Below, piece after piece: positions 18,724 through 59,500 of a DNA stretch of 60,253 nucleotides. The DNA comes from Hydrogenophaga sp. Its GTDB lineage: Bacteria; Pseudomonadota; Gammaproteobacteria; Burkholderiales; Burkholderiaceae_C. Position numbers and translations under genes: made by a program. The stretch spans positions 1 to 60,253 of the forward strand of contig JAIFMP010000089.1 in the NCBI GenBank assembly GCA_020048405.1. The letters run 5' to 3'. Under the pieces are notes generated by a model. It had not been told where the DNA came from. It did no database searches and saw only the letters and a program-made list of their open reading frames with translations. Every line of letters starts with the position of its first letter. Position 1 is the first letter of the stretch.

Positions 18724-18768
18724 TGATAGCTATAAAGCCACGCCCATCAAGCGCCTTTGGCCTTTTCA
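18724..18768 (+). repeat. Dispersed short repeat, copy 1; supplies the pstC C-terminus and stop
   Basis: TGATAGCTATAAAGCCACGCCCATCAAGCGCCTTTGGCCTTTTCAG; shares TGATAGCT...CATCAAGCGC...GGCC with the other copies. Confidence 0.6.
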
Positions 18769-19745
18769 GCCCTCATCAGCATGATCTTGGCGGCAGCCAG
18801 CACCACGAAAGTGATGACAAACAGCAGGAAGGCCAGCGCAAACAGCGTGGACACATGGAAATCCGCCGCTTCGCCAAACTCATTGGCAAGCGTCGAAGCG
18901 ATGGACGTACCAGGCGAGAACAGCGAAGTGGGCAACCGGTTGGCATTGCCGATCACAAACGTGACGGCCATCGTTTCGCCCAACGCACGGCCCAGGCCGA
19001 GCATGACGCCACCGACCACCCCTTTTTGGGTGTACGGCAGCACGACCTTGCGCACCACCTCCCACGTGGTGCACCCCAGTCCGTATGCCGATTCGCGCAG
19101 GATGGGTGGCACGATTTCAAACACATCCCTCATGACTGCTGCAACAAATGGCAATACCATGAAAGCCAGCACAATGCCCGCGGCCAGGATGCCGATGCCG
19201 TTGGTCGCCCCACCGAACAGGGGGCCAATCAAGGGCATTTGCCCGAGGGTGGACTGGATGGCTGGCTGCCCGTACTCGGCGAACAGCGGAGCAAAAATGA
19301 AAAGACCGAACATGCCGTAAATGATGGAGGGTACGGCGGCCAACAGTTCAATGGCGGTACCCAACGGGCGACGCAGCGCCACAGGACAGTTCTCGGTCAG
19401 AAACAGCGCAATGCCAAATGCCAGCGGCACAGCAATCAGGAGGGCGATGCCAGCACTGGCCAGCGTGCCGAAAATGGCAATGGCCGCACCGAACTCCTCG
19501 TTCACGATGTCCCACTCCACGCGCCAGATGAACTGCACGCCAAACTTGTGGAAGCTGGGCCAGGCATTGATCAGCAGGGAAATGATGATGCCCACCAGTG
19601 CGGCCAGCACGATCAGAGAGAACGACTGGGTGATGCGGTGAAACAGCACGTCTTGAAACCGCTGTTTGCTGGCAATGGCCGCCATGTTCGGGTTGTTCAG
19701 TTGTACTTCTGCAGGCTGCACATTCATGGTGGTCACCACACTCAT
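18747..19745 (-). CDS. pstC: Phosphate ABC transporter permease PstC
   Basis: [19 protein letters not shown]...[27 protein letters not shown]...[18 protein letters not shown]. Confidence 0.95.
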
Positions 19746-19783
19746 AAAAACTCCTCACCAGGGGCACAGGCACCCCCACCAAA

Positions 19784-19820
19784 CAAAAACCTGCCAGAGC
19801 AACAGACGTGCGCTGGCAGG
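19784..19820 (-). terminator. Hairpin/attenuator between pstS and pstC
   Basis: Reverse strand CCTGCCAGCGCACGTCTGTTGCTCTGGCAGG followed by TTTTTG. Confidence 0.65.
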
Positions 19821-19840
19821 CAGGTCAGCTTACCGCTGAA

Positions 19841-20869
19841 TCACTTGTTGTTGATTTGGGACCAGACTTTGGAGCGGATCTGGTCGGTCAGGCTGTCGGG
19901 CAATGGCACGTAGTCCAGGTCGGAAGCCAGCTTCTTGCCGTTCTTGAAAGACCAGTCAAAGAACTTCAACACTTCAGCGGACTCAGCCTTGTTGGTGGGT
20001 TGCTTGTACATCAGGATGAAAGAGGCTGTGCTGATGGGCCAGCTGGTGTCGCCCTTGGCGTTGACCATCGACACGCCCATGCCAGGCACGCTGAACCAGT
20101 CGGCACCAGCAGCAGCAGCAGCAAATGTCACGTCGTCGGGCTTGACATACTTGCCGTTGGCGTTTTGCAGCTGCATGAAGGGCATGTTGTTTTTCTTGAC
20201 GTAGGCGTATTCAACGTAACCCACGGCACCCTTCACACGGTTCACGTTGGCGGCCACGCCTTCGTTGCCCTTGCCACCCACCGACGATGCGGCAGGCCAC
20301 TTGACAGCGGCGCCCTTGCCCACTTTGCTGGCCCACTCGGGGCTGATGGCAGCCAGGTAGTCGGTGAAGTTGAACGTTGTACCTGAGCCGTCAGCGCGGT
20401 GCACCACGGTCACGGCCGTATCAGGCAGCGCCACGCCAGGGTTCAACGCGGCCAGTTTGGCATCGTTCCACTTGGTGATGTTGCCCAGGAACAGGTCAGC
20501 CAGCACGGGGCCGGTGATTTTCAGATCGCCAGGCTTGATGCCGTCGAGGTTGAACACAGGGACCGTGCCACCGATGATGGCTGGGAACTGCACCATGCCA
20601 TCCTTGTCCAGGTCTGCACCGCCCACAGGGGCGTCGGAAGCACCAAATGCCACGGTTTTTGCGCGGATTTGCTTCAAACCGCCAGAAGAACCGATGGACT
20701 GGTAGTTCAGACCTGTACCTGTGGCTGCTTTGTAAGCCTCAGCCCACTTGGCGTAGACGGGGAACGGGAAGGTAGCACCAGCACCGGTGATGTCGGCTGC
20801 GATGGCCGAAGTGCCGAAGGCCAGAGCGGCGACAGAAGCAGCCACGGATTTCAGGAACAGACGTTTCAT
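19841..20869 (-). CDS. pstS: Phosphate ABC transporter substrate-binding protein
   Basis: MKRLFLKSVAASVAALAFGTSAIAADITGAGATFPFPVYAKWAEAY...GSSGGLKQI...RADGSGTTFNFTDYL. Confidence 0.97.
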   Translation of the reverse strand: MKRLFLKSVAASVAALAFGTSAIAADITGAGATFPFPVYAKWAEAYKAATGTGLNYQSIGSSGGLKQIRAKTVAFGASDAPVGGADLDKDGMVQFPAIIGGTVPVFNLDGIKPGDLKITGPVLADLFLGNITKWNDAKLAALNPGVALPDTAVTVVHRADGSGTTFNFTDYLAAISPEWASKVGKGAAVKWPAASSVGGKGNEGVAANVNRVKGAVGYVEYAYVKKNNMPFMQLQNANGKYVKPDDVTFAAAAAGADWFSVPGMGVSMVNAKGDTSWPISTASFILMYKQPTNKAESAEVLKFFDWSFKNGKKLASDLDYVPLPDSLTDQIRSKVWSQINNK

Positions 20870-20920
20870 GGAAAAAACCTTTCGGGTTGGTTGAGCAAGA
20901 TGCCGCGACTCTAGGAAGCT

Positions 20921-20944
20921 TTTGTGACATACATGTGACACAAA
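20921..20944 (-). promoter_or_regulatory. Pho box upstream of pstS
   Basis: Reverse strand TTTGTGTCACATGTATGTCACAAA: two TGTCAC half-sites 11 nt apart. Confidence 0.75.
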
Positions 20945-21038
20945 CTGCATCCACACCACTTTCCAACACCCGGGCCCTGCCTGCCCAAAGCACGAAAAAC
21001 TCGGTGCTATGCTCGCGGCCAACTGGCACACAACCCCC

Positions 21039-22491
21039 ATGCAAAACGGAACATTACTCGCCGCAGTCGACCTGGGCTCCAACAGTTTCAGGCTCGAAAT
21101 CGGACGCTACGACCACGGTCACATTCAACGTGTGGAGTACCTGAAGGAAGGCGTGCGACAAGGCGGCGGCCTGGGCGAAGACCGCAACCTGTCCGACGTG
21201 GCCATGCAACGTGGCTGGGACTGCCTGGCCCGCTTTGCCGAGCGCATCAAGGGGTTTCAGCGCACGCAGGTGCGTGCCGTTGCCACCCAAACCCTGCGCG
21301 AGGCCCGCAACCGCGACGTATTCATCCAGAAGGCGCAGCTGATCCTGGGCTTTCCCATCGAAGTGATTTCCGGTCTGGAAGAAGCTCGGCTGATCTACCA
21401 GGGCGTGTCACGCCTGTTGCCTCAGTCTGATGAACGCAGGCTGGTGGTGGACATCGGCGGACGGTCGACCGAAATCATCATGGGCCAAGGCTTTCAGGCC
21501 AAAGCCATGGACTCGTTCCGGCTGGGCAGCGTGGCTTGGTCGGAACGTGTTTGCCCCTGCCGCGTTCAGAACCGCCGAGATTGCCGCGCAAGCGGTGCTG
21601 GATGAAGCCTTGGACATGTTTCCCCGCGACCAATGGGACGTGGCTTACGGATCGTCTGGCACCGTGGGAGCGATTGCCGATGTGCTGGCGGCCAACGGCC
21701 GCGACGGCAACACCATCAGCCGCGAGAGCCTGGACTGGCTGCAAGAGAAGCTGATCCGGGCCCAAACCGTCGACAACCTCCGCCTGGAAGGCCTCAAGGA
21801 CGACCGCAAACTGGTCATCGGCGGTGGCATCAGCGTGCTGCGGGCAGTGTTCGACCTGTTCAGCATCGACCACATGCAGGCTGCACAGGGAGCACTGCGC
21901 AACGGGGCGCTGTATGACCTGATTGACCGGGGCTCCGACGTGTCAGACGTGCGCGAACGCACGGTGCAGTGGCTGTGCGACCGCTTTTCAGTGGATGTAC
22001 CACAGGCCAAACGCGTGGGCCTGGTGGCAAATCACCTCTTTCGCCAGATTGCGCAGCCCAACGAGCAGAAAGAACGCCATTCCAAAAAGCTGGAGTGGGC
22101 CGCGAAACTGCACGAACTGGGCGTACACATCTCGCACGACGACGCACACCACCACGGTGCTTACGTGCTGGAGCATGTGGATGCGCCTGGCTTCTCCATG
22201 GTCGAGCTGCAGCGACTGAGTTTGCTGGTGCTGGGGCGCAAGCTGGAGGCCTACCTCGACGACGAACTGCTGGTCAAACAACTGATGTGCCTGCGCCTCG
22301 CCGTCTTGTTGTGCCACGCCCGCCGGGATCCGGCACACCAGGCCATCACGCTCCAGTTCAAGCCCAGGCAGTTCAAGCTCGTGGCCGATGTGGGCTGGGC
22401 GACGGCGCACCCACAATCGGCCTGGCTGATACAGGAAGAGGCGCTGGCCTGGCAAAAGGTCGGCTGGCGGCTGACCTTCGCGTTCAACTGA
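21039..22491 (+). pseudogene. ppx: Exopolyphosphatase (Ppx/GppA family); reading frame broken near 21540-21552 (possible assembly artefact)
   Basis: ORF 21009..21605 (AAVDLGSNSFRLEIGRY...VVDIGGRSTEIIMGQG...FRLGSVAWS) continues in another frame in 21430..22491 (NVFAPAAFRTAEIAAQAVLDEALDMFP...ASSGTVGAI-like YGSSGTVGAIADVL). Confidence 0.9.
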
Positions 22492-22530
22492 CAAGCTGAC
22501 TGCTCCCCGCAACAGGTTTTATCGGCGTGT

Positions 22531-24759: not shown

Positions 24760-24822
24760 GGGGCTATGGCCAGAATGTGACGCTTTCATGATAGCCACCC
24801 GCCCCCTGGGTTATTTGGCAGT

Positions 24823-24844
24823 TTTGTGACGGATCGGTGACAAC
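24823..24844 (-). promoter_or_regulatory. Putative Pho box 1 upstream of ppk
   Basis: Reverse strand GTTGTCACCGATCCGTCACAAA. Confidence 0.6.
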
Positions 24845-24855
24845 AGCTTTCCTGC

Positions 24856-24877
24856 CTGTGCAGATTTATGACAAAAA
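24856..24877 (-). promoter_or_regulatory. Putative Pho box 2 upstream of ppk
   Basis: Reverse strand TTTTTGTCATAAATCTGCACAG, close to CTGTCATAAATCTGTCAC. Confidence 0.6.
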
Positions 24878-24925
24878 TTCGCATCTAGCGCTTTTCTGTA
24901 TTGTATTTCAAGCTTCTTTATTTGA
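24872..24925 (-). repeat. Dispersed short repeat, copy 2, inside the 3' end of the glycosyltransferase ORF
   Basis: Reverse strand TCAAATAAAGAAGCTTGAAATACAATACAGAAAAGCGCTAGATGCGAATTTTTG; matches the ygiQ copy (GAAGCTGAGAAACCAATACAGGAAAGCGCTGGAGGCC). Confidence 0.65.
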
Positions 24926-28425: not shown

Positions 28426-30905
28426 TCAATGGGTTTTGCGGGTGGTGCGCCCGCCATTGGGCTTGACGGGCTTCAGGTTCGGGCTGCGAGGGGGCAGGCC
28501 GGTGTGCTGCGTCAGCACCTGACCCTTCACGGGTTGCTTGCCCTTCAAACCCACCACCACCCCCTTGCCGGGTGACGGCTTGGCCGCCGATGAGGCAGTG
28601 CCCGTGCCGGGAGTGCTGTTTTTCTTGCGCGCACTTTGGTAGCCGCCATCGGTCAGCGGCTGGAAGGTGGGAATGAGGTGGTGTTTGCCGTTGCCAATCA
28701 GGTCGGCGCGGCCCATGGTTTTCAGCGCCTCGCGCAGCAGCGGCCAGTTGTTGGGGTCGTGGTAGCGCAAAAACGCCTTGTGAAGTCGGCGGCGTTTGTC
28801 GCCACGCACGATGTCCACCGTTTCGTCGTCGCTCTCGGCCTGGCGGCGCACCTTGCGCAATGGGTTGCGCCCCGAGTGGTACATGGCCGTGGCCGTGGCC
28901 ATGGGGCTGGGGTAGAAGGTTTGCACCTGGTCGGCACGGAAACCGTTTTTTTTCAGCCACAGGGCCAGGTTCATCATGTCTTCGTCGCGTGTGCCGGGGT
29001 GGGCTGCGATGAAGTACGGAATGAGAAACTGCTTTTTGCCCGCTTCTTCGCTGAACTTTTCAAACATCTGTTTGAACTTGTCGTAGCTGCCAATGCCGGG
29101 CTTCATCATTTTGGACAGCGGCCCGCCTTCGGTGTGCTCAGGCGCAATCTTCAGGTAGCCACCCACGTGGTGCGTCACCAGTTCTTTCACGTACTCAGGG
29201 CTTTGCACCGCCAGGTCGTAGCGCAGGCCGGAGCCGATCAATATCTTCTTGATGCCCTTCAACCCCCTCGCCCGCCGGTACATCTTGATGAGGGCGGAGT
29301 GGTCGGTGTTGAGGTTGGAGCAGATACCCGGGTACACGCAGCTGGGTTTGCGGCAGGCGACTTCAATCTCCGGGCTTTTGCAACCGATGCGGTACATGTT
29401 GGCCGTGGGGCCACCCAGGTCTGAAATGACGCCGGTGAAGCCCTTCACCTTGTCACGGATGTCTTCCACCTCTTGAATGACAGAGTCTTCCGAACGGCTC
29501 TGGATGATGCGGCCCTCGTGTTCGGTGATGCTGCAAAACGTGCAGCCCCCAAAACACCCACGCATGATGTTCACACTGAACCGAATCATTTCCCAGGCCG
29601 GGATTTTGGTGGCGCCGTCGTGGCTGCCGTTCTCGTCGGCATAAGCAGGGTGTGGGCTGCGGGCGTAAGGCAGCCCAAACACCAGATCCATCTCGGCCGT
29701 GGTGAGTGGGATGGGGGGCGGGGTGATCCACACGTCGCGCGCCGTGGTGCCCTCGCCGTGGGCCTGCACCAGGGCACGGGCGTTGCCGGGGTTGGTTTCC
29801 AGGTGCAGCACGCGGTTGGCGTGGGCGTAGAGCACAGGGTCGCTCTTCACCTGCTCGTAGCTGGGCAGGCGGATGACCGAGCGGTCGCGTGGCGGCACCC
29901 ACAGCGCGCCGTGCCCGCCTTTGCCCGTGCCCGCCACCCGAGTGGGCAGGGCCGGGTTTTGCATGAAGGCCAGCGGCTTGACATTGCCTTGCAACGCCGG
30001 GCCTTCATTCTTCAAGCTTTTTTGGCCTCCAGCGCTTTCCTGTATTGGTTTCTCAGCTTCACTATCAGCACTGCCACCCATACCGGGTTTGACACAGGTG
30101 GTGTCGTTTTCCTTGGCCAGGTCGGCCGTGGTCAGGTAGGGGTTGACATGGGCCTCCACGCGGCCGGGCGAGTCCACGCTGGTGGAGTCGATCTCAAACC
30201 AACGGTCATCGCCCGTGGGGGTTTCACGGCGGAAAAACGCGGTGCCCCGCACATCGGTGATCTGCGTCACCGGCTCGCGAGCGGCCAGGCGGTGGGCAAT
30301 TTCCACAATCGCGCGCTCGGCGTTGCCGTACAGCAGCAGGTCGCATTTGGCGTCGACCACGATGCTGCGGCGCACTTTGTCGCTCCAGTAGTCGTAGTGG
30401 GCAATGCGGCGAAGGCTGCCTTCAATGCCGCCCAGAATGATGGGCACCTCGGGGAAAGCCTCACGGCAGCGCTGGCTGTACACAATGGCCGCACGGTCGG
30501 GACGCTTGCCACCCACATCGCCGGGGGTGTAGGCGTCGTCGCTGCGGATTTTGCGGTCCGCCGTGTAGCGGTTGATCATGCTGTCCATGTTCCCGGCGGT
30601 CACGCCCCAGAACAGGTTGGGCTTGGGTCAGCGCTTTGCCAGTCGGGCTGGGCAATGATGCCCACCCTGAACCCCTGATTTTCCAGCATGCGGCCAATCA
30701 CGGCCATGCCAAAGCTGGGGTGGTCCACATAGGCATCGCCCGTTACCAGCACGATGTCGCAGCTGTCCCAACCCAGTTTGTCCATTTCGGCCCGGCTCAT
30801 GGGCAGAAACGGTGCGGTGCCAAAGCGGGCAGCCCAGTACTTGCGGTAGCTGTTCAGCGGCTTGGCGGCGCGGGGGAAAAGGGAGACATCGACGGGGGCG
30901 TTCAT
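28426..30905 (-). pseudogene. ygiQ: YgiQ family radical SAM protein; reading frame broken near 30624-30630 (possible assembly artefact)
   Basis: [66 protein letters not shown]...DWQSADP (ORF 30600..30971) then [27 protein letters not shown]...[17 protein letters not shown] (ORF 28426..30603). Confidence 0.92.
30010..30068 (-). repeat. Dispersed short repeat, copy 3, inside the ygiQ coding region
   Basis: Reverse strand TGATAGTGAAGCTGAGAAACCAATACAGGAAAGCGCTGGAGGCCAAAAAAGCTTGAAG. Confidence 0.7.
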
Positions 30906-30984: not shown

Positions 30985-31024
30985 AAAAAAAAGCGCCGTG
31001 GAGAACCCTCCCAGGCGCTTTAAA
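30985..31024 (-). terminator. Rho-independent terminator after ppa
   Basis: Reverse strand AAAGCGCCTGGGAGGGTTCTCCACGGCGCTTTTTTTT. Confidence 0.75.
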
Positions 31025-31072
31025 TCGGAGCAAACTTTCCTTTAGAGGAGAGCTCTGGACGCTAAAAAAGCA

Positions 31073-31587
31073 TCATTTTTGCGATGCAGCGTAAGCAGCC
31101 ATGCCATCGGTGATTTCTTTGTGGGCTTCGGGAATGCCGACCCAGCCATTGACCTTGACCCACTTGCCGGGCTCCAGGTCTTTGTAGTGTTCAAAGAAGT
31201 GGGCGATGTTCTTCAGCACCAGTTGATGTGGTCGTAGAACGGCAGGATTTTTTGGGTGGGCACGGCCAGGAGCTTGGCGTCTTCACCACCTTCGTCGGTC
31301 ATTTTGAACATGCCGATGGCGCGGCAAGGCACCACCACACCAGGAGGCAATGGGAACGGGGTCAGCACCAGCACGTCCACAGGGTCACCGTCGCCACTGA
31401 TGGTCTGCGGGATGTAGCCGTAGTTGCAGGGGTAGTGCATGGCCGTGCCCATGAAACGGTCCACAAACAACGCGCCAGACTCTTTGTCCACCTCGTACTT
31501 CACAGGGTCGGAGTTGGCAGAGATTTCGATGATGACGTTGAAAGCTTCTGGTGCCTTGGAGCCGGGGGTGACGTTGTTCAATGACAT
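31073..31587 (-). pseudogene. ppa: Inorganic pyrophosphatase; reading frame broken near 31218-31228 (possible assembly artefact)
   Basis: [62 protein letters not shown]...[17 protein letters not shown]; downstream in another frame [49 protein letters not shown]. Confidence 0.92.
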
Positions 31588-32865: not shown

Positions 32866-32869
32866 ACAC

Positions 32870-35800
32870 GTGACCGCCATCCCCGCACCGGTCCCCTTGC
32901 GCCGCATGGTCGCCATCTTTGGCGTGATGGTGGGCGTGTTTGCCGTGTTGCTGATATGGGCTGCGCTGAGCCAGATCCGCCGCAGCGAACAGTTGGCCCT
33001 GCAATCGGGGCGCGACCAGGTGGAGCGCGTCGTGAGCGCCGCAGAAAGCACGATCAACCGCACCTTGGTGGGCGTGGACATGCTGCTGGCCGAGACCACT
33101 GACTGGGTGCGCGAACTCCCGGGCAACCCAGACGACCAGCGCAGCACTGCACCAGTCCTGGCAGTGCAGCGCCTGCTCAAAGCCGCGCTGAACCAAAACC
33201 TGATGCTGCGCGACGTGGCCGTGGTGGACGAAAACGGGCAAGTGCTGTTCAGCGCCAAACCCGCCACCGCCCGCCTCGGTTTGCAGTTGCCAGTAGGTTT
33301 CCTGGAGCGTCTGCTGGCGCAGCCCTACCCATCGCTGGAAGTGAGCGGGCCGCAGTCCAATAGCGCGGGGCCAGACCGTTCGCTGTTTTTTGCGCGCTCG
33401 GTGCTGCTGGCCAACCAGCACAAGGCGGTGGCTGTGGCAGAGGTCCACTTGCCGCTGGTGGCCAGTCTGATGGACCCCGGTGACCCGCTGGGTCAGATGT
33501 GGGTGACGCTGGAGCGAGACAACGGCCAGTTGCTGGCCAGCCACCCCGCGCTGGACGCCCTCATTGGCCAGATGTTGGCGCCGCCCCTGAACCCGGCTGC
33601 GGCCAACGGCCAGGCCCACGCAGAGTCGGGGCGACTCAGCAGCGAAGCATCCGTTTTGGCCGTGAGGCCCACCCTGTACGCCGGGCTGCTCATTTCAGCA
33701 GGCATGCCCCGCAGCGCCGTGTTGGCAGATGCCCGGCAGGAGCGCCAAGTGGTGTTGGCAGTGACCGGTGGGCTTCTGGTGCTCGTGTTTTTTACGGCCG
33801 GGCTGCTATGGGTGTACGTGTCGCGCTTGTCGATGGCGCGCACGCAAGTGGCACAGGCCAATGCGAAGCTTCAGCAGGCCAACGGGGACTTGGCGCAGTC
33901 ACTCTCCCTCATCAAGGCCACGCTGGAGTCCACCGCCGATGCGGTTTTGGTGGTGGGTACCGATGGGCAAGTGAAACACTACAACCGCCAGTTTCTGCAC
34001 GCTGTGGGCCTGAACGAAGCACAGATGGCGGCCCATACGCCGAACACCATGCGCGATGCCGTGGCGGGTCACATGGCAGACCCCGACCATTTCCTGCGCA
34101 GCACGCACGAGGCTGACCAAAACCCGCTGCAGGAAACCCGCGACCAGATTGAGCTGAAGGACGGCCGGGTGATGGTGCGCCATTCGCTGCCCCAATTGCT
34201 GGACGGGCAACCGGTGGGGCGCGTGTGGAGCTTTCAGGATGTGACTCACTTCAAGCGCGCCGAGGAATCGCTGCGAGCGCAGCAAGACGCACTCAACCTT
34301 GCCCACAGCGACCTGGCCGCCACGCTGGAAGCCATTCCCGACCTGCTGTTTGAACTCGATGAAGAGGGCCATTACCTCGACTACCGCGCAGGTCAGCAAA
34401 ACCTGCTGGCGGTGCCCCCCAAACAACTGCTGGGGCGAAAGGTGTCAGAGGTCATGCCGACTGCCGCCGCGCAAGAGGTGATGGCTGCACTGGCAGAAGC
34501 CAGGGCACAGGGCCACTCCTACGGGAGGCAGGTGGCGCTGGATCTGCCACAGGGCAAAACCTGGTTTGAGCTGTCGGTGGCGCGCAAAAAGGGCCTGGCC
34601 AACGGGCAGGCGCGTTTCATACTGATCTCGCGCGATATCAGCATGCGCAAGCAGCACGAACACCTGATCTGGAACCAAGCCAACTACGACTCGCTCACCG
34701 GCCTGCCGAACCGCCGCATGTTCCGCGACCACCTGGAAGACCGCCTGGCCTTGGCTGGGGCTCGTGGAGAAGAGCTGGCAATGATGTTCCTCGACCTCGA
34801 TCGGTTCAAAGAAATCAATGACACCCACGGCCATGACATGGGTGACCACCTGCTGCAAACCGCTGCACAGCGCCTGCGTGCCTGTGTGCGCGAGTCAGAC
34901 ATGGTGGCCCGCATGGGTGGCGACGAATTCACACTGCTGATCGCCGGCAATGGTGTGGCTGAGCGCGCCGGTACCCTGTGCGAGGCTTTGCTCCAACGCA
35001 TGGCCGAGCCGTTTCACCTGGGGCTGGAGCTGGACTACGTCTCGGCCAGCATCGGCATCACGCTGTTCCCCGACGACGCTCAGGATGCCGAGACCCTGAT
35101 CAAACAAGCCGACCAGGCCATGTACGCCGCCAAACGCCTGGGCCGCAACCGGTTTGAACGCTTCACCTCGGCCATGCAGGAGGCCACCCTGGTGCGTTCA
35201 CGCATTGCCCGCGACCTGCGTTCCGCCTTGAGCGGAGAACAGTTTTGGCTGGCCTACCAACCCGTGGTTGACCTGCGCACGGGAATGGTCCGCAAAGCCG
35301 AGGCGCTGATCCGATGGCAACACCCCACACAGGGTGAGGTGGGCCCCGCCACCTTCATACCCATTGCAGAAGAGTCAGGCAGCATCCACGAGATAGGCCA
35401 GTGGGTGTTCGAGACCGCTGCCGCGCAGGTGGCCCAGTGGCGGCGCAGTTTGCACCCTGAGTTTCAAATCGGTATCAACACCTCGCCCCTGCAGTACCAG
35501 CGCCAGGGACTGCAACCCGGCACACTGACTGCGCACTTGGCCACGCTGGGACTGGACGGCCACAGCCTGGTGCTGGAAATCACCGAGGGCCTGCTGATGG
35601 ACGCGTCGGCCGGCACGCGCCAGCAATTGAGCGCCCTGCACGCCGCAGGTTTCGAGATATCGTTGGACGACTTTGGCACCGGCTACTCGGCGCTGTCGTA
35701 CCTGCACCAGTTCGACCTGGATTACCTGAAAATCGACCAGTCTTTTGTGCGCGGGCTGCACGCCAACAGCAAAGACCTGGCACTTTGCAAAGCCACCATC

Positions 35801-35977
35801 GTGATGGCGCACGAGCTGGGCCTGAAGGTGGTGGCGGAGGGCATTGAAACGGAAGAACAGCGTGACCTGCTGGCCCAGGCGGGTTGCGATTTTGGTCAGG
35901 GCTACCTGTTTTCACGCCCCGTGTCAGCTGGCGACTTCGAAGCGCTGATGGCCAAATGGCCTGCCAATGGATTCTGA
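32870..35977 (+). CDS. Membrane-anchored sensor with periplasmic domain, PAS domains, GGDEF and EAL (bifunctional diguanylate cyclase/phosphodiesterase)
   Basis: N-terminal TM, LVFFTAGLLWVYVSRLSM second TM, ARMGGDEFTLLIAGN (GGDEF intact), RKAEALIRWQHP (EAL intact), DDFGTGYSALSYLHQFDLDYLKIDQSFV; GTG start. Confidence 0.93.
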   Translation: MTAIPAPVPLRRMVAIFGVMVGVFAVLLIWAALSQIRRSEQLALQSGRDQVERVVSAAESTINRTLVGVDMLLAETTDWVRELPGNPDDQRSTAPVLAVQRLLKAALNQNLMLRDVAVVDENGQVLFSAKPATARLGLQLPVGFLERLLAQPYPSLEVSGPQSNSAGPDRSLFFARSVLLANQHKAVAVAEVHLPLVASLMDPGDPLGQMWVTLERDNGQLLASHPALDALIGQMLAPPLNPAAANGQAHAESGRLSSEASVLAVRPTLYAGLLISAGMPRSAVLADARQERQVVLAVTGGLLVLVFFTAGLLWVYVSRLSMARTQVAQANAKLQQANGDLAQSLSLIKATLESTADAVLVVGTDGQVKHYNRQFLHAVGLNEAQMAAHTPNTMRDAVAGHMADPDHFLRSTHEADQNPLQETRDQIELKDGRVMVRHSLPQLLDGQPVGRVWSFQDVTHFKRAEESLRAQQDALNLAHSDLAATLEAIPDLLFELDEEGHYLDYRAGQQNLLAVPPKQLLGRKVSEVMPTAAAQEVMAALAEARAQGHSYGRQVALDLPQGKTWFELSVARKKGLANGQARFILISRDISMRKQHEHLIWNQANYDSLTGLPNRRMFRDHLEDRLALAGARGEELAMMFLDLDRFKEINDTHGHDMGDHLLQTAAQRLRACVRESDMVARMGGDEFTLLIAGNGVAERAGTLCEALLQRMAEPFHLGLELDYVSASIGITLFPDDAQDAETLIKQADQAMYAAKRLGRNRFERFTSAMQEATLVRSRIARDLRSALSGEQFWLAYQPVVDLRTGMVRKAEALIRWQHPTQGEVGPATFIPIAEESGSIHEIGQWVFETAAAQVAQWRRSLHPEFQIGINTSPLQYQRQGLQPGTLTAHLATLGLDGHSLVLEITEGLLMDASAGTRQQLSALHAAGFEISLDDFGTGYSALSYLHQFDLDYLKIDQSFVRGLHANSKDLALCKATIVMAHELGLKVVAEGIETEEQRDLLAQAGCDFGQGYLFSRPVSAGDFEALMAKWPANGF

Positions 35978-36022
35978 TTTCGCAGCTGAAAAGTCAATAC
36001 CATCAAGCGCCAAGAGCATTTT
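35975..36022 (+). repeat. Dispersed short repeat, copy 4, starting at the stop codon of the GGDEF-EAL gene
   Basis: TGATTTCGCAGCTGAAAAGTCAATACCATCAAGCGCCAAGAGCATTTTT. Confidence 0.65.
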
Positions 36023-36047
36023 TCTTTCATTTTTTACGGCAAACACC

Positions 36048-45066: not shown

Positions 45067-45231
45067 ATGCCCCACCCGCTCACAAATCAACCACCCGATG
45101 CCCCCCTGCCCCGTTGGGTGAGATGGGGTTTGGGCGTGGCGGCGGTCACAGCCACGCTGGGCGTTTTTGCGCTGTACCAACGGCCAGACTTTCTCCTGAC
45201 CCTGGCCGACCAGCTGTGGGCCTGTTTTTAA
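45067..45231 (+). CDS. 54-aa single-TM protein following the MFS gene
   Basis: MPHPLTNQPPDAPLPRWVRWGLGVAAVTATLGVFALYQRPDFLLTLADQLWACF*, 5 nt after the MFS stop. Confidence 0.5.
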   Translation: MPHPLTNQPPDAPLPRWVRWGLGVAAVTATLGVFALYQRPDFLLTLADQLWACF

Positions 45232-45234
45232 CAT

Positions 45235-45290
45235 TTAATGCTTTTTATGCCTATAAGGCTTATCAGAATTGATTAGACAGCTATATATTT
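45235..45290 (-). repeat. Dispersed short repeat, copy 5 (degenerate)
   Basis: Reverse strand TATATAGCTGTCTAATCAATTCTGATAAGCCTTATAGGCATAAAAAGC. Confidence 0.45.
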
Positions 45291-45884
45291 ATGCATACAT
45301 CGACGCCACCTTCCGACTGGGTGCAACGCTGGGTTCATCTGCTGCGGCCCAAGGGCACTGTATTGGACGTAGCCTGCGGCGGTGGTCGCCATGCCCATTG
45401 GTTGGCGGGACAGGGCTTTCAGGTCAGCGGGGTTGACCGCGACCCACTGGCACTCGCTACGGCCCAAGCCTGTTGGCCCGAGCATGCAGAACCCGCCACG
45501 CAACTGCTGGTGGCAGACCTTGAAAACCTGCCGTGGCCACTACCTGGCCTGACCTTCGATGCCCTGGTGGTGACCAACTACCTTTGGCGACCACTGTGGC
45601 CCACGCTTCTGGCCGCCCTTGCACCAGGCGGTGTCTACATTCATGAAACGTTTGCGCAGGGCAATGAAACCGTGGGCAGACCCAGCCGCCCCGACTTCCT
45701 GCTGCAACCCGGCGAGCTGCTGACAGCATGCGCAGGCTTGCGTGTGGTGGCATTCGAGGATGGGTTTTGCACCGCCCCTGACCGGTTTATACAGCGCATC
45801 GTGGCCGTGCGTGATGCAACGCCCGTTGGTGCCTCGCCCGTCCGATACCCATTGATACCCCCGGTGCCCCATGGCGCTGGCTAG
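45291..45884 (+). CDS. Class I SAM-dependent methyltransferase
   Basis: [36 protein letters not shown]. Confidence 0.85.
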
Positions 45885-48045: not shown

Positions 48046-48297
48046 TCACTGCTTCTTTTCTTCAGGCTTTTGCTCTGCGGCAGGTGCTGCCACAGGAGCG
48101 GCTGCGGCGGGGGTTGCATCGGCAGCGGGAGCTGCAGGAGCCGCGGCTGGAGCTGCAGCAGGTGCTGGCTCTGCTGCGGCAGGTGCAGGAGCAGGAGCGG
48201 CAGCAGGGGCTGGAGCAGGTGCTTCTTCTTTTTTGCCGCAAGCGGTCAGGGCAGCAGCAGCGGCCAACAGGCCGACGATCAACAGATTCTTGTTCAT
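48046..48297 (-). CDS. Ala/Pro-rich low-complexity lipoprotein
   Basis: MNKNLLIVGLLAAAAALTACGKKEEAPAPAPAAAPAPAPAAAEPAPAAAPAAAPAAPAADATPAAAAPVAAPAAEQKPEEKKQ; lipobox LTAC. Confidence 0.65.
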   Translation of the reverse strand: MNKNLLIVGLLAAAAALTACGKKEEAPAPAPAAAPAPAPAAAEPAPAAAPAAAPAAPAADATPAAAAPVAAPAAEQKPEEKKQ

Positions 48298-50264: not shown

Positions 50265-50840
50265 ATGAAAATCACCGAGCAATGCGTCGCCGCCCTGACC
50301 TGGACGCTGAAAGACACCCTGGGCGAAACACTGGACCAATTGGACGAACCCGTGGAATTTCTGGTGGGTGGGGACGACCTGCTGGCCAAACTGGAAGAAG
50401 CACTGATGGGCAAAGCCGCTGGCGACCGCGTGCTGTTGCAACTGGAGCCCGAAGACGCGTTTGGCGACTTCAATGACCAGTTGATGTTTCTGGAGCCGCG
50501 CAACCTGTTCCCGGCCGAACTGGAAGAAGGCATGGCCTTTGAGGGCCTGCCACCCGGCGGCAACCCCGATGCGCCCACCGACCTGCTGTACTTTGTCAGC
50601 GAGATTTACCCCGAACACGTGGTGATGGACGCCAACCACCCACTGGCCGGCATTGCCCTGCGCCTGGACCTCAAGGTGCACGCCGTGCGCGAGGCCACGC
50701 TGGACGAAATCGGCAAAGGCACGATGGGCACCGGCTTTTTCAAGCTGCACCTGCCCACCGACACGCCCGCTTCAGGCCACGATCACGACCACAGCCATGA
50801 CCATGGTCACGATCACGGCCCAAGGCAGTTATTGCATTGA
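50265..50840 (+). CDS. slyD: FKBP-type peptidyl-prolyl isomerase, SlyD-like with His-rich tail
   Basis: MKITEQCVAALTWTLKDTLGETLDQLDEPVEFLVGGDDLLAKLEEALMGKAAGDRVLLQLEPEDAFG...GHDHDHSHDHGHDHGPRQLLH. Confidence 0.88.
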   Translation: MKITEQCVAALTWTLKDTLGETLDQLDEPVEFLVGGDDLLAKLEEALMGKAAGDRVLLQLEPEDAFGDFNDQLMFLEPRNLFPAELEEGMAFEGLPPGGNPDAPTDLLYFVSEIYPEHVVMDANHPLAGIALRLDLKVHAVREATLDEIGKGTMGTGFFKLHLPTDTPASGHDHDHSHDHGHDHGPRQLLH

Positions 50841-50891
50841 ATAAGGCCCTACCGCTTGATGGTATTGAACAGTTCACTACACTTTCAATCA
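50838..50891 (-). repeat. Dispersed short repeat, copy 6, starting at the dut stop codon and ending at the slyD stop codon
   Basis: Reverse strand TGATTGAAAGTGTAGTGAACTGTTCAATACCATCAAGCGGTAGGGCCTTATTCA. Confidence 0.65.
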
Positions 50892-51335: not shown

Positions 51336-51353
51336 GGCGGCGAATTGTGCCCA

Positions 51354-51388: not shown

Positions 51389-51416
51389 TCTGAGGTGCGG
51401 CGCACAGGCGCGCCGA

Positions 51417-53812: not shown

Positions 53813-53834
53813 GAATTGCTCCAGGAAATCGAAT

Positions 53835-53862
53835 AAAAAACCCCGCGGGTGCGGGGTTTTTT
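53835..53862 (-). terminator. Rho-independent terminator between dctP and dctQ
   Basis: AAAAAACCCCGCGGGTGCGGGGTTTTTT. Confidence 0.75.
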
Positions 53863-53878
53863 GCTGCAAACGCAGGGC

Positions 53879-54934
53879 TTACAGCTTGGCGCTCTGCATG
53901 TAGCGATCGAACGTGGCTTCGGTGAAGCGGAACCACAGGTTCGAGTCTTTGCGGAAAGCAGAGTAGCTGTCGTAGGCGTTCAACTCGCTGTACAGCGCCA
54001 TCGAATGCTTGAAGGCCTCGTCCATGACAACCTTGGGGAACGGCAGGATCTTGACCTTGGCAGCAGCCAAACGCTTCAACGCGGCAGGGTTGCGTGCGTC
54101 GTAACGGGCCTGCATGGTGGTGTGAGCCAGGGCAGACGCGCACTCCACGATGGCTTTGTTCTCTGCAGACAGGGCGTTGAACGCGGTGGTGTTGCAGTAC
54201 AGCGTGAGCTGTGCGCCGCCTTCCCACCAGCCTGGGTAGTAGTAATGCTTGGCCACTTTGCCAAAGCCGAGCTTCTCGTCGTCGTATGGCCCCACCCATT
54301 CGGTGGCGTCGATGGTGCCTTTTTCCAGCGCCTGGTAGATCTCGCCGCCAGGGATGTTCTGGGGCACGCCGCCCATGCGGGTCAGCACCTTGCCTGCGAA
54401 GCCACCAATGCGCATTTTCATGCCCTTGATGTCGGCCAGGGTTTTGATTTCTTTGCGGTACCAGCCGCCCATTTGGGCGCCCGTGTTGCCCATGGGGAAG
54501 TTGTGGATGTTGTACGCAGCGTAGAACTCACGGAACAGCTTCATGCCGTCGCCTTCGTACTGCCATGCGGTCAGCTGGCGGCTGTTCAGGCCAAACGGAA
54601 TGGCTGTGTCCATCGCAAAGGTGTCGTCTTTGCCGAAGAAGTAGTAAGGCGCTGTGTGCGCGCATTCCACGGTGCCTTGTTGAACGGCGTCGACCACGCC
54701 GAAAGGTGGCACCAATTCACCACCGGGGTGAACGCTGACTTCGAACTTGCCGCCAGACATGCGCTTGACTGCATCGGCAAACACGTCTGCCGCACCGAAG
54801 ATGGTGTCCAGCGCCTTGGGGAAGCTGGAGGCGAGGCGCCAGCGAACAGCGGCTTGTGCATGCACTGCGGGTGCAGCACCTGCGGCCAGCACACCGGCAA
54901 TGCCAGCGTTTTTAATGAGGGAACGACGATCCAT
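53879..54934 (-). CDS. dctP: TRAP transporter substrate-binding protein
   Basis: MDRRSLIKNAGIAGVLAAGAAPAVHAQAAVRWRLASSFPKALDTIFGAADVFADAVKRMSGGKFEVSVHPGGELVPPFGVVDAVQQGTVECAHTAPYYFFGK. Confidence 0.94.
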   Translation of the reverse strand: MDRRSLIKNAGIAGVLAAGAAPAVHAQAAVRWRLASSFPKALDTIFGAADVFADAVKRMSGGKFEVSVHPGGELVPPFGVVDAVQQGTVECAHTAPYYFFGKDDTFAMDTAIPFGLNSRQLTAWQYEGDGMKLFREFYAAYNIHNFPMGNTGAQMGGWYRKEIKTLADIKGMKMRIGGFAGKVLTRMGGVPQNIPGGEIYQALEKGTIDATEWVGPYDDEKLGFGKVAKHYYYPGWWEGGAQLTLYCNTTAFNALSAENKAIVECASALAHTTMQARYDARNPAALKRLAAAKVKILPFPKVVMDEAFKHSMALYSELNAYDSYSAFRKDSNLWFRFTEATFDRYMQSAKL

Positions 54935-55047
54935 AGCGTTTGACTCCGTGGTTGGATTTATCACATCCAGGCAACCACTGTCACGGCGCCCGGAGACTTC
55001 ACAGTCCGAGCGCGATTGTAGGAACCGCACTCACCTGGCTCCCGGGG

Positions 55048-55064
55048 GTTTTCCCTTGGAAAAC
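55048..55064. promoter_or_regulatory. Perfect palindrome upstream of dctPQM (possible operator)
   Basis: GTTTTCC-CTT-GGAAAAC, 7-bp arms, ~115 nt upstream of the dctP ATG. Confidence 0.35.
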
Positions 55065-55132
55065 GTGTGTGAATACCCCCCTTTCAGCTTGTTGCAAGCT
55101 TGGGGGCAGTTACTTTGTGGTCGGAAGTGAAA

Positions 55133-56967
55133 TTATTTCAATCCGGCCTGCCACCGCAGCACCGAAGCCTGAATGCCAGGCGCATCCAGACCTTGCTGTG
55201 CCAGCAGGGCGACGGGGTCGCCGTGGTCGATGAACACATCGGGCAGGCCCAGGGTCAGCACAGGCACTGTGATGCCCAGTGTTTGCAATGCCTCCAGAAC
55301 AGCAGAGCCTGCGCCGCCGGGCAGGCAGCCTTCTTCGACGGTGACCAGTGCCGTGTGGGTGCGGGCCAGTTCACGCAGCAAGTTGACATCGAGCGGTTTG
55401 GCCCAGCGCATGTTGGCCACGGTGGCGTTCAAGGCCTCGGCGGCCACCAGCGCCGGCGCCAGCAGGGTGCCAAACACCAGCAACGCCACGCCCTGCCCCT
55501 GCCGACGGACCTCGCCCACACCGTAAGGCAATGGGTCCAGGTGGCTGGGCACCGGCACGCCCGTACCACTGCCGCGCGGGTAGCGCACAGCCACCGGGTG
55601 GTTTTGTTGGAAGGCGGTGGTCAGCAAGGCACGGCACTCGGCCTCATCTGCCGGGCAGGCCACCGCCAAGTTCGGAATGCAACGCAGGTAGGCAATGTCA
55701 TAGGCCCCGGCATGGGTGGCGCCGTCTGCCCCCACCAGGCCCGCACGGTCGAGCGCAAACACCACGGGCAGGTTTTGCAGCGCCACGTCGTGAATGAGCT
55801 GGTCGTAGCCGCGCTGCAAAAAGGTGGAATAGATGGCCACCACGGGCTTCAGACCTTCGCAGGCCATGCCTGCGGCAAACGTCACAGCGTGTTGCTCGGC
55901 AATGCCCACATCGTGGTACCGGCCAGGAAAACGGCGCTCAAACTCGACCAGGCCGGAGCCTTCACGCATGGCGGGCGTGATGCCCACCAGCCGCTCGTCC
56001 TGGGCGGCCATGTCGCACAACCACTGCCCAAACACCTGCGTGAAAGTGGGTTTGGCCGGTGCGGTGCTTTTGACCAGCCCCACGGCCGGGTCGAACTTGC
56101 CCGGGCCGTGGTAGGCCACGGGGTCGGCCTCGGCCAGCTTGTAGCCCTGGCCCTTTTTGGTGACCACATGCAGGAACTGAGGGCCTTTCAGGTGCTTGAT
56201 ATTTTCCAGCGTGGGAATGAGACTGTCCAGGTCGTGGCCGTCGATGGGGCCCACATAGTTGAAGCCGAATTTTTCAAACAGCGTGGCGGGCACCACCATG
56301 CCCTTGGCGTGTTCTTCCAGCCGCTTGGCCAACTCGAACAACGGCGGTGCGTTCTTCAGCACCTGTTTGCCCACCTGTTTGGCTGCCGCGTAAAACTGCC
56401 CGCTCATCAACTGCGCCAGGTAGCGGTTGAGCGCGCCCACCGGAGGCGAAATGGACATGTCGTTGTCGTTCAGGACCACCAGCAGCGGCACGTCTTGCAC
56501 GCCGGCGTTGTTGAGTGCCTCGAAGGCCATGCCGGCCGTCATGGCACCGTCGCCAATGACCGCGATGCTGTGGCGGTGCTCGCCTTTTTGCCTGGCTGCC
56601 ACGGCCATGCCCAGTGCCGCCGAGATGGAGGTGGACGAGTGTGCCGTGCCGAAGGTGTCGTATTCGCTTTCGTCGCGCTTGGGGAAGCCGCTGATGCCAC
56701 CGAACTGACGCAGACTGCCCATGCGGTCGCGGCGACCGGTCAGGATTTTGTGCGGGTAGGTCTGGTGCCCCACATCCCACACGATGCGGTCATAGGGTGT
56801 GTTGAACACGTAGTGCAAGGCGATGGTGAGTTCGACCGTTCCCAGGTTGGAACTGAGGTGGCCCCCGGTGCGGGAGACGCTGTCAAGCACGCCAGCGCAG
56901 GCAACTGCCCACGGGCGAGGTTGCGCATGTCGGCGGGCTGTTCGATGCGGTTCAGGAGTGAGTTCAT
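55133..56967 (-). pseudogene. dxs: 1-deoxy-D-xylulose-5-phosphate synthase; reading frame broken near 56886-56893 (possible assembly artefact)
   Basis: [26 protein letters not shown] (ORF 56740..56997) then [54 protein letters not shown] (ORF 55133..56890). Confidence 0.95.
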
Positions 56968-57021
56968 GGGTTCCAGCCGTGCTTGGCGCTCGGTCAATAG
57001 GGGTCAGCGGGTGCCGGGGGG

Positions 57022-57903
57022 TCAGTGGCGTCGGCCACCCACCAGATCGGCCAGGGCATGAAGCGGGGCCACATGGGGCAACTGGCTGTTCAGCAACGCT
57101 GCCTGGGCGTGTGAAAGCAGTTCGTTGGCGTAAGTTTGCGCGCGGTCCAGCCCCATCAGGCTGACAAAGGTGGGTTTGTCGGCATCGGCATCTTTGCCGG
57201 CGGTTTTGCCGAGTGTGGCGGTGTCAGACACCACATCGAGCACGTCGTCCACCACCTGGAATGCCAGGCCAAGGCAACGACCATAGTCAGCCAGGTGCGG
57301 CAAGGCTGTGGCGGGCACTTGCCCGCAGGCGGCCCCCATCATGACGCTGGCTTGCAGCAGGGCACCGGTTTTCAGGCGGTGCATGTGCTCCAACTCAGGC
57401 TGGGTCAGTGCCAGTCCCACGCTCGCCAAGTCAATGGCCTGCCCACCGGCCATACCTCCACCGCCGGCAGCCAAGGCCAGGCTGCGGCACAGGTGTGCGG
57501 CCAAGGCGTCGGGCACGCTGCCGTCACCGGGCACCAGGAGCTCAAAGGCCAGGGCTTGCAAGGCATCCCCTGCCAGCAGGGCCTGGGCTTGACCGAATTG
57601 CACGTGCACGGTGGGTTTGCCGCGGCGCAGCACGTCGTTGTCCATGCACGGCATGTCGTCGTGCACCAGTGTGCTGCGCGCAGCGCAGCGCCGCCAGTCA
57701 CAGCCGTTGGGCCGGCCGACTCGCTGGCGGCCAGCACAAGCAAGGGGCGCAAGCGCTTGCCACCGTCCAGCACGGCGTAGCGCATGGCCTGACCCAGACC
57801 GGCCGGGGCGCTGGGGCACACCCAGTCAGACAAGGCCTGTTCAACAGATGAAAGGTGTCTGGCCATCCAGGGGGCCAGATCGAATTCGGCAACAGCGTTC
57901 ATC
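57022..57903 (-). pseudogene. ispA: Polyprenyl (farnesyl) diphosphate synthase; reading frame broken near 57668-57684 (possible assembly artefact)
   Basis: [61 protein letters not shown]...GGAALRAA then out of frame LVHDDMPCMDNDVLRRGKPTVHVQFGQAQALLAGDALQALAFELL. Confidence 0.94.
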
Positions 57904-58153
57904 AGTCGGCCGCCCAGGGCTTGAGCTCGCCGGACTCCAGCACCTTGATCTGCTGCTCGACGGCCTGCAGGCGCTCCCTGCAATGGGCTAGCAGTTGGGC
58001 ACCACGCTGATACTGCGCCAGCAACTGGTCAAGCGGGAGCTGACCGGTGTCCAGCCGGCTGACAAGTTGCTCCAGCTCCTGTATGGCCAGTTCGTAGGTG
58101 GCAGGCAAAGGCAGCGGAGCAGCGGACGGGTCAGGTGTTCGGGTTTTGGACAT
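57902..58153 (-). CDS. xseB: Exodeoxyribonuclease VII small subunit
   Basis: [55 protein letters not shown]. Confidence 0.93.
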
Positions 58154-58355
58154 GGGCTGTGCGGAATGTGACAGTTGATTTTACCGGGCCGCCCTTTTCC
58201 CCGTGCCGGGTACACTACGCCCCCCTTTTTAAACCTCACGGGGTTACACCAAGGCCAACACGTCACCTTCCCGCGCCAAACCGACAGTCGCCAGCGATTT
58301 TCGTGATGCGCTTACCCTGCCCCTTCATAGGGGGAGTCTTTAGGTCAGGACCTTC

Positions 58356-59449
58356 ATGTCTGATTTGAGTCTTCAACTGCAGCAGGCCACAAGCCAACTT
58401 CCAGTTTCCAGATTGGCGAGCATCTTTCAGCAGGGGCCCCGCTATGTGGGGCACACCAACGCCATTCCCAATGTCGGCGATTACTACGCCCTGCCTCAGG
58501 AGGGCGAAGGCCGTGCCCTGGTGCGCACGGCCACCGGGGTGGAACTGGTGTCCAACGTCTGCCGCCACCGGCAGGCAGTGATGCTCAAGGGTCGGGGCAA
58601 CCTGGGCCACACCCAAGCGGGCAGTGCCGCAGGCAACATCGTGTGCCCCCTGCACCGGTGGACTTACAGCGGCGGCTCAGGCATGGGCAAGCTGGGGGAG
58701 CTGATTGGCGCCCCGCACTTTGCCCAAGACCCCTGTCTGAACCTAAAGAAATACCCATTGCGCGAGTGGAACGGCATGCTGTTTGAAGACAACGGCCGAG
58801 ACATCGAGGCCGACCTGGCTCACATGGGCCCCCGTGCCGCGCTCAACTTCGAGGGCATGGTGTTGGACCATGTCGAGCTGCACACCTGCCACTACAACTG
58901 GAAAACCTTCATTGAGGTGTACCTGGAGGACTACCACGTGGGCCCCTTCCACCCCGGGCTGGGCAGACCTGGGAATTCAAGCCCGAGTACTCGGTGCAGA
59001 CCGTGGGAGCGCAAAACCTGTTGGGCAAGGCCGGCAGCCCGGTTTACCAGCACTGGCACGAGCAGCTGATGGCCTACCGCGAAGGCAAAGCCCCGGATCA
59101 CGGCGCCATCTGGCTCACCTACTACCCCCACATCATGGTGGAGTGGTACCCCCATGTGCTGACCGTGTCCACGCTCTACCCCGTCAGCGCCCATGAAACG
59201 CTGAACATGGTGGAGTTCTATTACCCCGAAGACATCGCCGCCTTCGAGCGCGGATTCGTGGATGCGCAACGCGCCGCCTACATGGAAACCTGCATCGAAG
59301 ACGACGAAATCGGTGAACGCATGGACGCGGGACGCAAAGCCCTGCTGGCCCGTGGCGACAACGAGGTGGGGCCCTACCAAAGCCCGATGGAAGACGGCAT
59401 GCAGCACTTCCACGAGTGGTACCGCCAGCGCATGGGAAGCCCCATTTGA
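58356..59449 (+). pseudogene. Rieske [2Fe-2S] aromatic ring-hydroxylating-type oxygenase subunit; reading frame broken near 58963-58972 (possible assembly artefact)
   Basis: VCRHRQAVMLKGRGN...NIVCPLHRWTYSG Rieske motif; FIEVYLEDYHVGPFHPGLG then out of frame TWEFKPEYSVQTVGAQNLLGKAGSPVYQHWHEQLMAYREGK. Confidence 0.88.
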
Positions 59450-59500
59450 TATAGCTGAAAGTGCTTGACCATCAAGCGCTGGAGGCCAAAAAGACCATCA
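59447..59500 (+). repeat. Dispersed short repeat, copy 7, starting at the Rieske gene stop codon and filling the intergenic gap
   Basis: TGATATAGCTGAAAGTGCTTGACCATCAAGCGCTGGAGGCCAAAAAGACCATCA; near-perfect hairpin AGTGCTTGA-CCA-TCAAGCGCT. Confidence 0.7.

Follow-up and report, generated by a model that had tools for sequence, protein, structure and literature searches.

A dispersed 62-bp motif of Hydrogenophaga and other Comamonadaceae is a candidate DNA-uptake sequence

RESULTS

The locus analyzed here ("the window") is a 60,253-nucleotide stretch of the genome of Hydrogenophaga sp. (G000). Copies of a dispersed repeat lie within or beside several of its genes, including a YgiQ-type radical SAM gene, a GGDEF/EAL gene, a glycosyltransferase gene, and a dUTPase gene (Table 1). 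Seven copies had been predicted from the sequence alone; all seven strings were exact in position and strand, and we identified two further copies. A profile seeded with copies nearly all from outside the window (that at 59447 excepted) recovered the copies at 30058, 35983, 50880, and 18725 at 18 to 25 bits and the copy at 24914 at 9.2 bits. The copy at 45285 scored 2.8 bits with this profile and 50.8 bits with a full-width ungapped matrix that had not been trained on it. Window copies were compared with those of four congeners, G118, G121, G125, and G126. The copy in the YgiQ-type gene is in frame and falls in a hypervariable linker. The TGA that leads the copies at 35975, 50891 (minus strand), and 59447 serves the preceding gene as its stop codon and lies outside the repeat.

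Table 1. Motif copies in the window. Coordinates of the two additional copies are approximate.
Feature	Position	Strand	Location	Score	Congeners
Motif copy, additional	6493..6554	-	3′ end of gene 5632-6597	Matrix 26.3, outside training set	Same site and orientation in G125 (41.6) and G126 (24.9)
Motif copy	18718..18779	+		Profile 18.0 bits (outside seed); matrix 29.1	Kept in G125, G121
Motif copy	24863..24924	-	Reads into C-terminal codons of glycosyltransferase gene	Matrix 54.3	Kept in G125, G126
Motif copy	30007..30068	-	Within YgiQ-type radical SAM gene 28426-30588 (-)	Matrix 50.3	Kept in 4/4
Motif copy, additional	31019..31080	+		Matrix 28.0, outside training set	Same site in G118, G126, G121 at 40-46
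Motif copy	35974..36035	+	Directly 3′ of stop codon of GGDEF/EAL gene 32870-35977	Matrix 55.1	Kept in 4/4
Motif copy, most diverged by profile HMM	45231..45292	-		Matrix 50.8, untrained on copy	Kept in G125, G118, G121
Motif copy	50827..50888	-	Between convergent genes, after dUTPase stop codon	Matrix 49.5	Kept in 4/4
Motif copy	59443..59504	+	Directly 3′ of stop codon of gene 58994-59449	Matrix 53.6	Kept in G125, G118

The column profile of the aligned copies defined a nonpalindromic motif of approximately 62 bp with sharp edges. It is wider than the 45 to 55 bp proposed initially, so the alignments reach far past the short AAGCGC core. From 5′ to 3′, the motif consists of an AT-rich flank, ATAGC, CAATACCATC, AAGCG, GGC, and two A/T tracts. 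TAGC and AAGCG, which are approximately two helical turns apart, are the conserved blocks; ATCAA is not conserved. The first A/T tract (positions +14 to +18) can be TTTT or AAAA, and the second occupies positions +24 to +30; the W content of the copies is 95 to 100% at +15 to +18 and 72 to 89% at +24 to +28. The total information is approximately 42 bits, with invariant columns adjoining saturated ones, and mutual information was detected between neighboring columns only. RNAalifold found no consensus pairs and no covarying stem in the motif alignment; hence, the hairpin previously noted in the best copy is not a property of the family. Copies folded barely better than shuffled sequence (mean z score, -0.5; z < -2 in 8 of 69 copies), and a scan of Rfam at gathering thresholds gave no matches. 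On the basis of these folding, Rfam, and mutual-information results, we rejected an RNA element.

The pattern TCAAGCGCTNGAGGC, allowing up to 2 mismatches, occurred 212 times in the genome, compared with 12 times for the reversed pattern. With the 62-column matrix, we found 101 sites in 757 kb of G000, or about 1 per 7.5 kb; 96 matches scored at least 20 bits, compared with none in 30 column-permuted controls. We conclude that the dispersed repeat is real and has hundreds of copies per genome. The original prediction had looked for tens to hundreds of copies with covarying stems; the number was borne out, and the stems were not.

Context was analyzed in the 757-kb sample, which was partly picked from contigs with matches and in which genes were called with a simple home-made gene caller. 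Spacing in this sample was overly even (CV, 0.65, versus 0.94 in simulations; P < 1/3,000), and 7 intervals were shorter than 2 kb, versus 21.7 expected. Matches were split between the strands (55 plus, 51 minus), which rules out a KOPS-like polar replication motif, and some copies form head-to-head pairs. Between codirectional genes, 17 sites had the same orientation as the genes and 28 the opposite; inside genes, the numbers were 19 and 22. Although the sample is 89% coding, 61 sites were intergenic, 2 of them between divergent genes, and 42 of the 106 matches were inside genes. The median distance to a stop codon was 16 bp. We conclude that the motif is enriched between genes, as anticipated, and not at divergent promoters.

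The proximity to stop codons and the avoidance of divergent regions would suit an element of transcript 3′ ends, either a terminator or a processing or stability signal, as would the T tracts in copies and one copy that adjoins an intrinsic terminator in G118 and G121. Such a role is nonetheless highly improbable, given that copies point both with and against transcription, that in-gene matches are sense and antisense alike, that AAAA can replace the TTTT tract, and that folding is so close to that of shuffled sequence.

Copies inside genes bear on how the motif arises. The copy in ubiA (56 bits) lies in a native transmembrane stretch that can be aligned gap free to most other genera, where scores at this position fall as low as -40. 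The copy in PolA is likewise gap free relative to most other genera of the family, several of which have no motif there; that in MnmE is gap free relative to PDB 9hip, and that in ValS coincides with a gap of at most 1 to 2 residues relative to homologues. Judged by these alignments, in-gene copies in several genes (UbiA, PolA, MnmE, and ValS) arose by substitution, not insertion. Homologues of SrkA, a UNG-like gene, and AroE have gaps of 15, 11, and 5 residues at the motif; for some copies, those in SrkA and the UNG-like gene, an origin by substitution is less certain. Orthologous sites in congeners kept the motif in 26 of 31 cases, always in the same orientation (26/26); the intergenic flanks of such sites were unalignable in more distant congeners.

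The repeat had been interpreted as a REP-like nonautonomous family, possibly associated with a RAYT (TnpA-REP) transposase. Like REP/BIME sequences, the motif is short, dispersed, and intergenic, and G000 carries one Y1/RAYT gene, with a motif copy 11 bp after it. However, when we profiled RAYT over 121 genomes, it was present in 103 of 106 good Comamonadaceae genomes, versus 31 of 106 for the motif, and it adjoined the motif in 3 of the 15 motif-bearing genomes for which the RAYT locus was fetched. Hence, RAYT was found but is linked to neither the distribution nor the neighborhood of the motif. The lack of a hairpin or palindrome, the lack of this link, and the gap-free in-gene copies argue strongly against a REP-like nonautonomous element. 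A REP/MITE-like element moved by RAYT or another transposase and now decaying, could account for the long consensus with its excess information and sharp ends, the enrichment between genes, the differences in length of SrkA and of the YgiQ linker, which resemble insertions, and the copy beside RAYT. We consider this unlikely. There is no consensus hairpin, RAYT does not match the motif, and the copies in UbiA, PolA, and MnmE already contradict insertion. Moreover, the spacing is too even, orientation is identical at every retained orthologous site, and invariant columns beside saturated ones are unlike uniform decay. The Beta-proteobacterial repeat element (BRE) is also dispersed in Comamonadaceae and mostly intergenic, with some in-gene copies, but it is 75 to 91 bp long, 69% GC, and often in tandem arrays (PMC3110155), whereas the motif is 62 bp, AT rich, and present as single copies; we therefore set BRE apart by its published description.

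We detected the motif in 31 of 106 good Comamonadaceae genomes (~30% of genera) and in none of 97 genomes from other families of the same order. Motif-bearing genera include Acidovorax, Polaromonas, Rhodoferax, Simplicispira, Giesbergeria, and Extensimonas, consistent with the earlier remark that such strings are common in the family. An exact-pattern scan of IMG/VR gave no matches, a count without a scalable expectation. A literature search with motif sequence strings returned nothing relevant. A 2017 study lists GCTTAT(N)5AAGCG as a "potential novel motif" of Acidovorax ebreus with no function assigned (PMC5217627, Table 7); it has 114 copies, which lie near gene ends and are 94% intergenic, with 44 in convergent and 4 in divergent regions (PMC5217627). 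This pair exactly fits positions -11 to -6 and 0 to +4 of a motif variant. The pair listed for Polaromonas naphthalenivorans, ATAGCT(N)22CAAAAG (PMC5217627, Table 7), has ATAGCT in common with the motif, with a spacer of 22 versus 30 here. The A. ebreus pair very probably belongs to the same family as the 62-bp motif. The doubt as to whether the family had been formally described is thus partly settled: half of the motif is in print, as word pairs only, without the full motif or a function.

ComEC is present in G000. ComP_DUS was not found in this 93% complete assembly but is present in the congener G118, and ComP_DUS-family pilins are encoded in most Comamonadaceae genomes. ComEC and ComP_DUS are both so widespread in Comamonadaceae, being nearly universal, that their phylogenetic profiles do not discriminate.

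DISCUSSION

We propose, as somewhat the better bet, that naturally competent Comamonadaceae use the motif as a DNA-uptake sequence, with copies renewed by substitution in place. Even spacing, an origin by base changes, and retention of sites between species are likewise features of the uptake signals of Haemophilus. By analogy, its profile is that of the uptake sequences of Pasteurellaceae (USS) and Neisseriaceae (DUS): over-representation, no orientation bias, regular spacing, a preference for noncoding DNA with copies in genes, substitution origin, 3′ AT-rich segments, and accompanying competence machinery. The Pasteurellaceae USS has two AT-rich segments 3′ of an asymmetric core, no orientation bias, over-regular spacing, a noncoding preference with many in-gene copies, and an origin by substitution (PMC1626085), and the motif resembles it in all of these respects. 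The Apl-type USS core, ACAAGCGGT, shares CAAGCGGT with motif variants, a resemblance that may be coincidental. The motif differs from USS in its betaproteobacterial host, its extra conserved 5′ block (TAGC), its length, its ~7-fold-lower density, and its weaker consensus. With DUS, recognized by the receptor ComP, it shares betaproteobacterial hosts, the presence of ComP_DUS-family pilins, and head-to-head pairs, but it is unrelated to the CTG-core DUS and has A/T tracts.

Several observations count against uptake. USS and DUS occur about once per kb, and known uptake sequences are 9 to 12 bp long plus tracts; the motif is much longer, and 101 sites in 757 kb are well short of that density. 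Its consensus is also weaker, with perfect matches not prevailing over single mismatches (for AGC(N)18AAGCG, an excess of ~63 exact and ~110 one-mismatch occurrences). In addition, nearly every genome of the family has competence genes, versus 31 of 106 genomes for the motif. The failure to find ComP_DUS in G000 and the residue gaps at the copies in SrkA, the UNG-like gene, and AroE also count against it.

A possible, less probable alternative is the binding site of an intracellular protein that acts on the chromosome as a whole (nucleoid associated or chromosome organizing, as for IHF), kept by selection at regular intervals. Substitution origin, even spacing, a nonpalindromic double-stranded motif, and orthologous conservation fit this equally well, and the ATCAA of the consensus resembles half of an IHF site. 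However, ATCAA is not conserved, whereas AAGCG and TAGC are; the mixed strands exclude a polar motif of the KOPS type; and ~14 bits would suffice to specify ~470 sites, so that ~42 bits is an excess without reason for an intracellular site.

Under the uptake model, for which we infer binding, uptake, receptor, and drive, the motif would be recognized on double-stranded DNA throughout the genome, and base substitution in place, not transposition, would create and renew its copies. Binding would fall to a receptor on the cell surface that belongs to the type IV pilus uptake machinery, perhaps a minor pilin like ComP or FimT; this receptor would read TAGC and AAGCG directly, about two helical turns apart, and the 3′ A/T tracts by shape or bending. 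Preferential uptake of related DNA, followed by recombination, would then return copies of the motif to the chromosome, a molecular drive. Verminephrobacter and some Acidovorax strains are naturally competent, with evidence of selective uptake, and Verminephrobacter competence operates through type IV pili (PMC4212676).

To our knowledge, no uptake sequence has been reported for Comamonadaceae. Sequence-specific DNA uptake has been stated for two families only, Neisseriaceae and Pasteurellaceae (PMC12616744). We give an even chance to the motif being a third, independently evolved family and the signal behind selective uptake in Verminephrobacter and Acidovorax. Such a putative family would exceed USS and DUS in length, have a looser consensus, and combine an Apl-USS-like core with a second block two helical turns upstream. 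If it exists, the evolution of uptake sequences, whether by receptor bias and drive or by selection for self DNA, could be examined in an independent replicate. Many genera in which the motif was gained or lost, and culturable, environmental, naturally competent relatives, offer comparative material. It would also account for an unexplained published motif and a long-noticed repeat of Comamonadaceae genomes. In UbiA and PolA, a DNA motif superimposed on the codons has remodeled the protein. Whether or not the uptake reading is correct, a 40-bit, evenly spaced, substitution-born motif demands a strong explanation. Our analysis suggests, and does not prove, that soil and water Comamonadaceae recognize their own DNA by this motif.

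Copy number and architecture of the repeat family

All seven strings quoted for a dispersed repeat in the original prediction lie exactly where it placed them in the window. A profile HMM seeded with copies from elsewhere in G000, the Hydrogenophaga genome carrying the window, and with window copy 59447 recovered five of the six remaining copies (18 to 25 bits, one at 9.2); copy 45285 was a weak match. The same profile gave 79 hits of at least 8 bits in 757 kb of G000, compared with at most 1 in reversed sequence, and TCAAGCGCTNGAGGC with up to two mismatches occurred 212 times in the 3.5-Mb genome (12 for a backwards control), so the proposed genome-scale excess is real.

Similarity extends beyond the AAGCGC core and stops abruptly at about -31 and +30 (69 copies aligned on AAGCG). 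An AT-rich flank is followed by (A/G)TAGC at -23 to -19 and by CAATACCATC; AAGCG occupies 0 to +4 and GGC +10 to +12, with TTTT or AAAA at +15 to +18 and a second AT-rich tract at +24 to +30. The motif is already known in part: GCTTAT(N)5AAGCG appears in a published list for A. ebreus (PMC5217627), where it was left unexplained and showed the same bias in gene context.

Trained on 69 of the copies, a matrix of 62 columns and about 42 bits gave 106 hits of at least 12 bits (101 unique sites) in the 757 kb; at 20 bits or more there were 96 hits, compared with 0 in 30 column-permuted controls. It brought the window total to nine copies, two of them new. Tandem 12- to 15-bp units resembling GCTGCAGGAG at window positions 48075-48218 are an alanine-rich coding repeat.

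Motif copies and transposase gene located in this analysis
Feature	Coordinates	Strand	Remarks
New motif copy	about 6493-6554	-	62-column matrix
New motif copy	31019-31080	+	62-column matrix
Motif copy outside the training set	45231-45292		copy 45285 of the seeded profile; matrix score, 50.8 bits
Single-copy Y1/RAYT-type transposase gene	L077:982-1719	-	G000 locus; motif copy 11 bp after stop codon

The motif is not a REP/RAYT element

A REP-like nonautonomous element had been suggested, with a hairpin in the best copy. Eight of the 69 copies do fold clearly below shuffles, but there is no family-wide hairpin: RNAalifold predicted no base pairs for the alignment, and mutual information was limited to adjacent columns. 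Alternatives at neighboring positions resemble short local reverse complements (TTTT/AAAA at +15 to +18, CTGG/CCAG at +5 to +8, and CAG/CTG around -4), and long-range covariation is absent alongside them. G000 has one Y1/RAYT gene. Relatives of it occur in 103 of 106 good Comamonadaceae genomes, the gene apparently being kept vertically, whereas the motif occurs in 31 of them. Of the 15 motif-bearing genomes for which the RAYT locus was retrieved, just 3 have a copy beside the gene, close to chance expectation at about one copy per ten genes. With no consensus pairing, no RAYT link, and some in-gene copies certainly substitution-born, we rejected the mobile-element reading.

In-gene copies and substitution

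A test used for Haemophilus uptake signal sequences (USS) looks for gaps in protein alignments where a copy lies within the gene (PMC1626085). The UbiA copy (56 bits) lies inside a transmembrane segment and is gap-free against most other genera; the identical position scores 48 to 56 in the congeners G125, G124, G118, and G121, 16 to 32 in a few other genera, and down to -40 in motif-free genera. The stretch around the PolA copy likewise aligns with most other genera of the family without a gap, and motif matches are graded among relatives; the T tract of the copy is encoded by codons such as GAT TTT TAT, where motif-free genera have GAC TTC TAT. Against solved homologues, the MnmE copy is gap-free and the ValS copy nearly so. 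The acyl-CoA dehydrogenase copy has a gap of a few residues, and copies in variable loops have larger ones (AroE, 5; UNG-like, 11; SrkA, 15 residues). The window YgiQ copy lies in a hypervariable linker with gaps, and motif-like peptides also occur there in other genera. In the G016 YgiQ orthologue (L125), one in-frame TGA falls within the match, possibly beyond the true gene end. Judged from these alignments, at least some copies certainly arose by substitution, and a minority may have been inserted.

Conservation, spacing, and orientation

Syntenic DNA from four congeners covers 31 orthologous sites, of which 26 keep the motif, all 26 in the same orientation; the intergenic flanks are unalignable in the more distant congeners. 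Spacing is far more even than under a null model that draws gene boundaries and coding positions at random (coefficient of variation [CV], 0.65 versus 0.94; p < 1/3000), with 7 intervals under 2 kb compared with 21.7 expected. Overall the copies divide evenly between the strands (55/51), as do those inside genes (19 in the same direction as the gene, 22 opposite); between codirectional genes the balance is less exact (17/28). Intergenic sites, with a stop codon at a median of 16 bp, lie between codirectional (45), convergent (16), or divergent (2) genes. Strand balance and gene layout argue against a strand-specific RNA signal, and the mixed strands against a polar replication motif. At orthologues of window copy 50840 in G118 and G121 (L173-L175, L179), the motif lies immediately next to the T run of a strong intrinsic terminator.

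Distribution and a possible role in DNA uptake

The 106 genomes were drawn across genera of the family, and the 31 carriers often reach the scoring cap; outside the family, 97 Burkholderiales genomes all lacked the motif. One exact long variant is carried by Acidovorax, Rhodoferax, Polaromonas, Giesbergeria, Simplicispira, Extensimonas, and further relatives. When 84,980 species genomes were scanned for the exact long pattern, about half of the hits fell in one lake assembly, ErkenSummer_bin-6677 (L188-L248), an unusually motif-rich or strong-consensus genome.

Like the uptake sequences of Pasteurellaceae and Neisseriaceae (USS and DUS), the motif is long, asymmetric, substitution-born, evenly spaced, and strand-neutral, and has a fixed core with A/T tracts 3′ of it (PMC1626085). 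The Apl-type USS core ACAAGCGGT and motif variants have CAAGCGGT in common, perhaps by chance. However, the motif occurs at about one-seventh of the density seen in USS/DUS genomes, and perfect cores are not in excess over singly mismatched ones; hence, we do not file the motif as a USS/DUS member. Its main rival role, as a site recognized by an intracellular, chromosome-wide binding protein, seems rather unlikely to us.

ComEC was found in G000. The Pfam family PF16732 (ComP_DUS) takes its name from the Neisseria DUS receptor; such pilins match 102 of 106 family genomes, often in several copies, and were not found in the incomplete G000 assembly. Passages of one report (PMC4212676) describe experiments in which Verminephrobacter eiseniae and some Acidovorax species were naturally competent, Verminephrobacter through type IV pili. 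There, A. temperans took up conspecific DNA only, and Verminephrobacter transformation fell only about ten-fold when salmon DNA was present in 1500-fold excess; those passages name no uptake sequence in their account of selective uptake. Discrimination at DNA binding is known only in Neisseriaceae and Pasteurellaceae, according to a 2025 paper (PMC12616744). Given the USS/DUS-like features, the competence genes of the family, and the selective uptake reported in relatives, we lean toward a DNA-uptake motif, which would most likely work as USS and DUS do.
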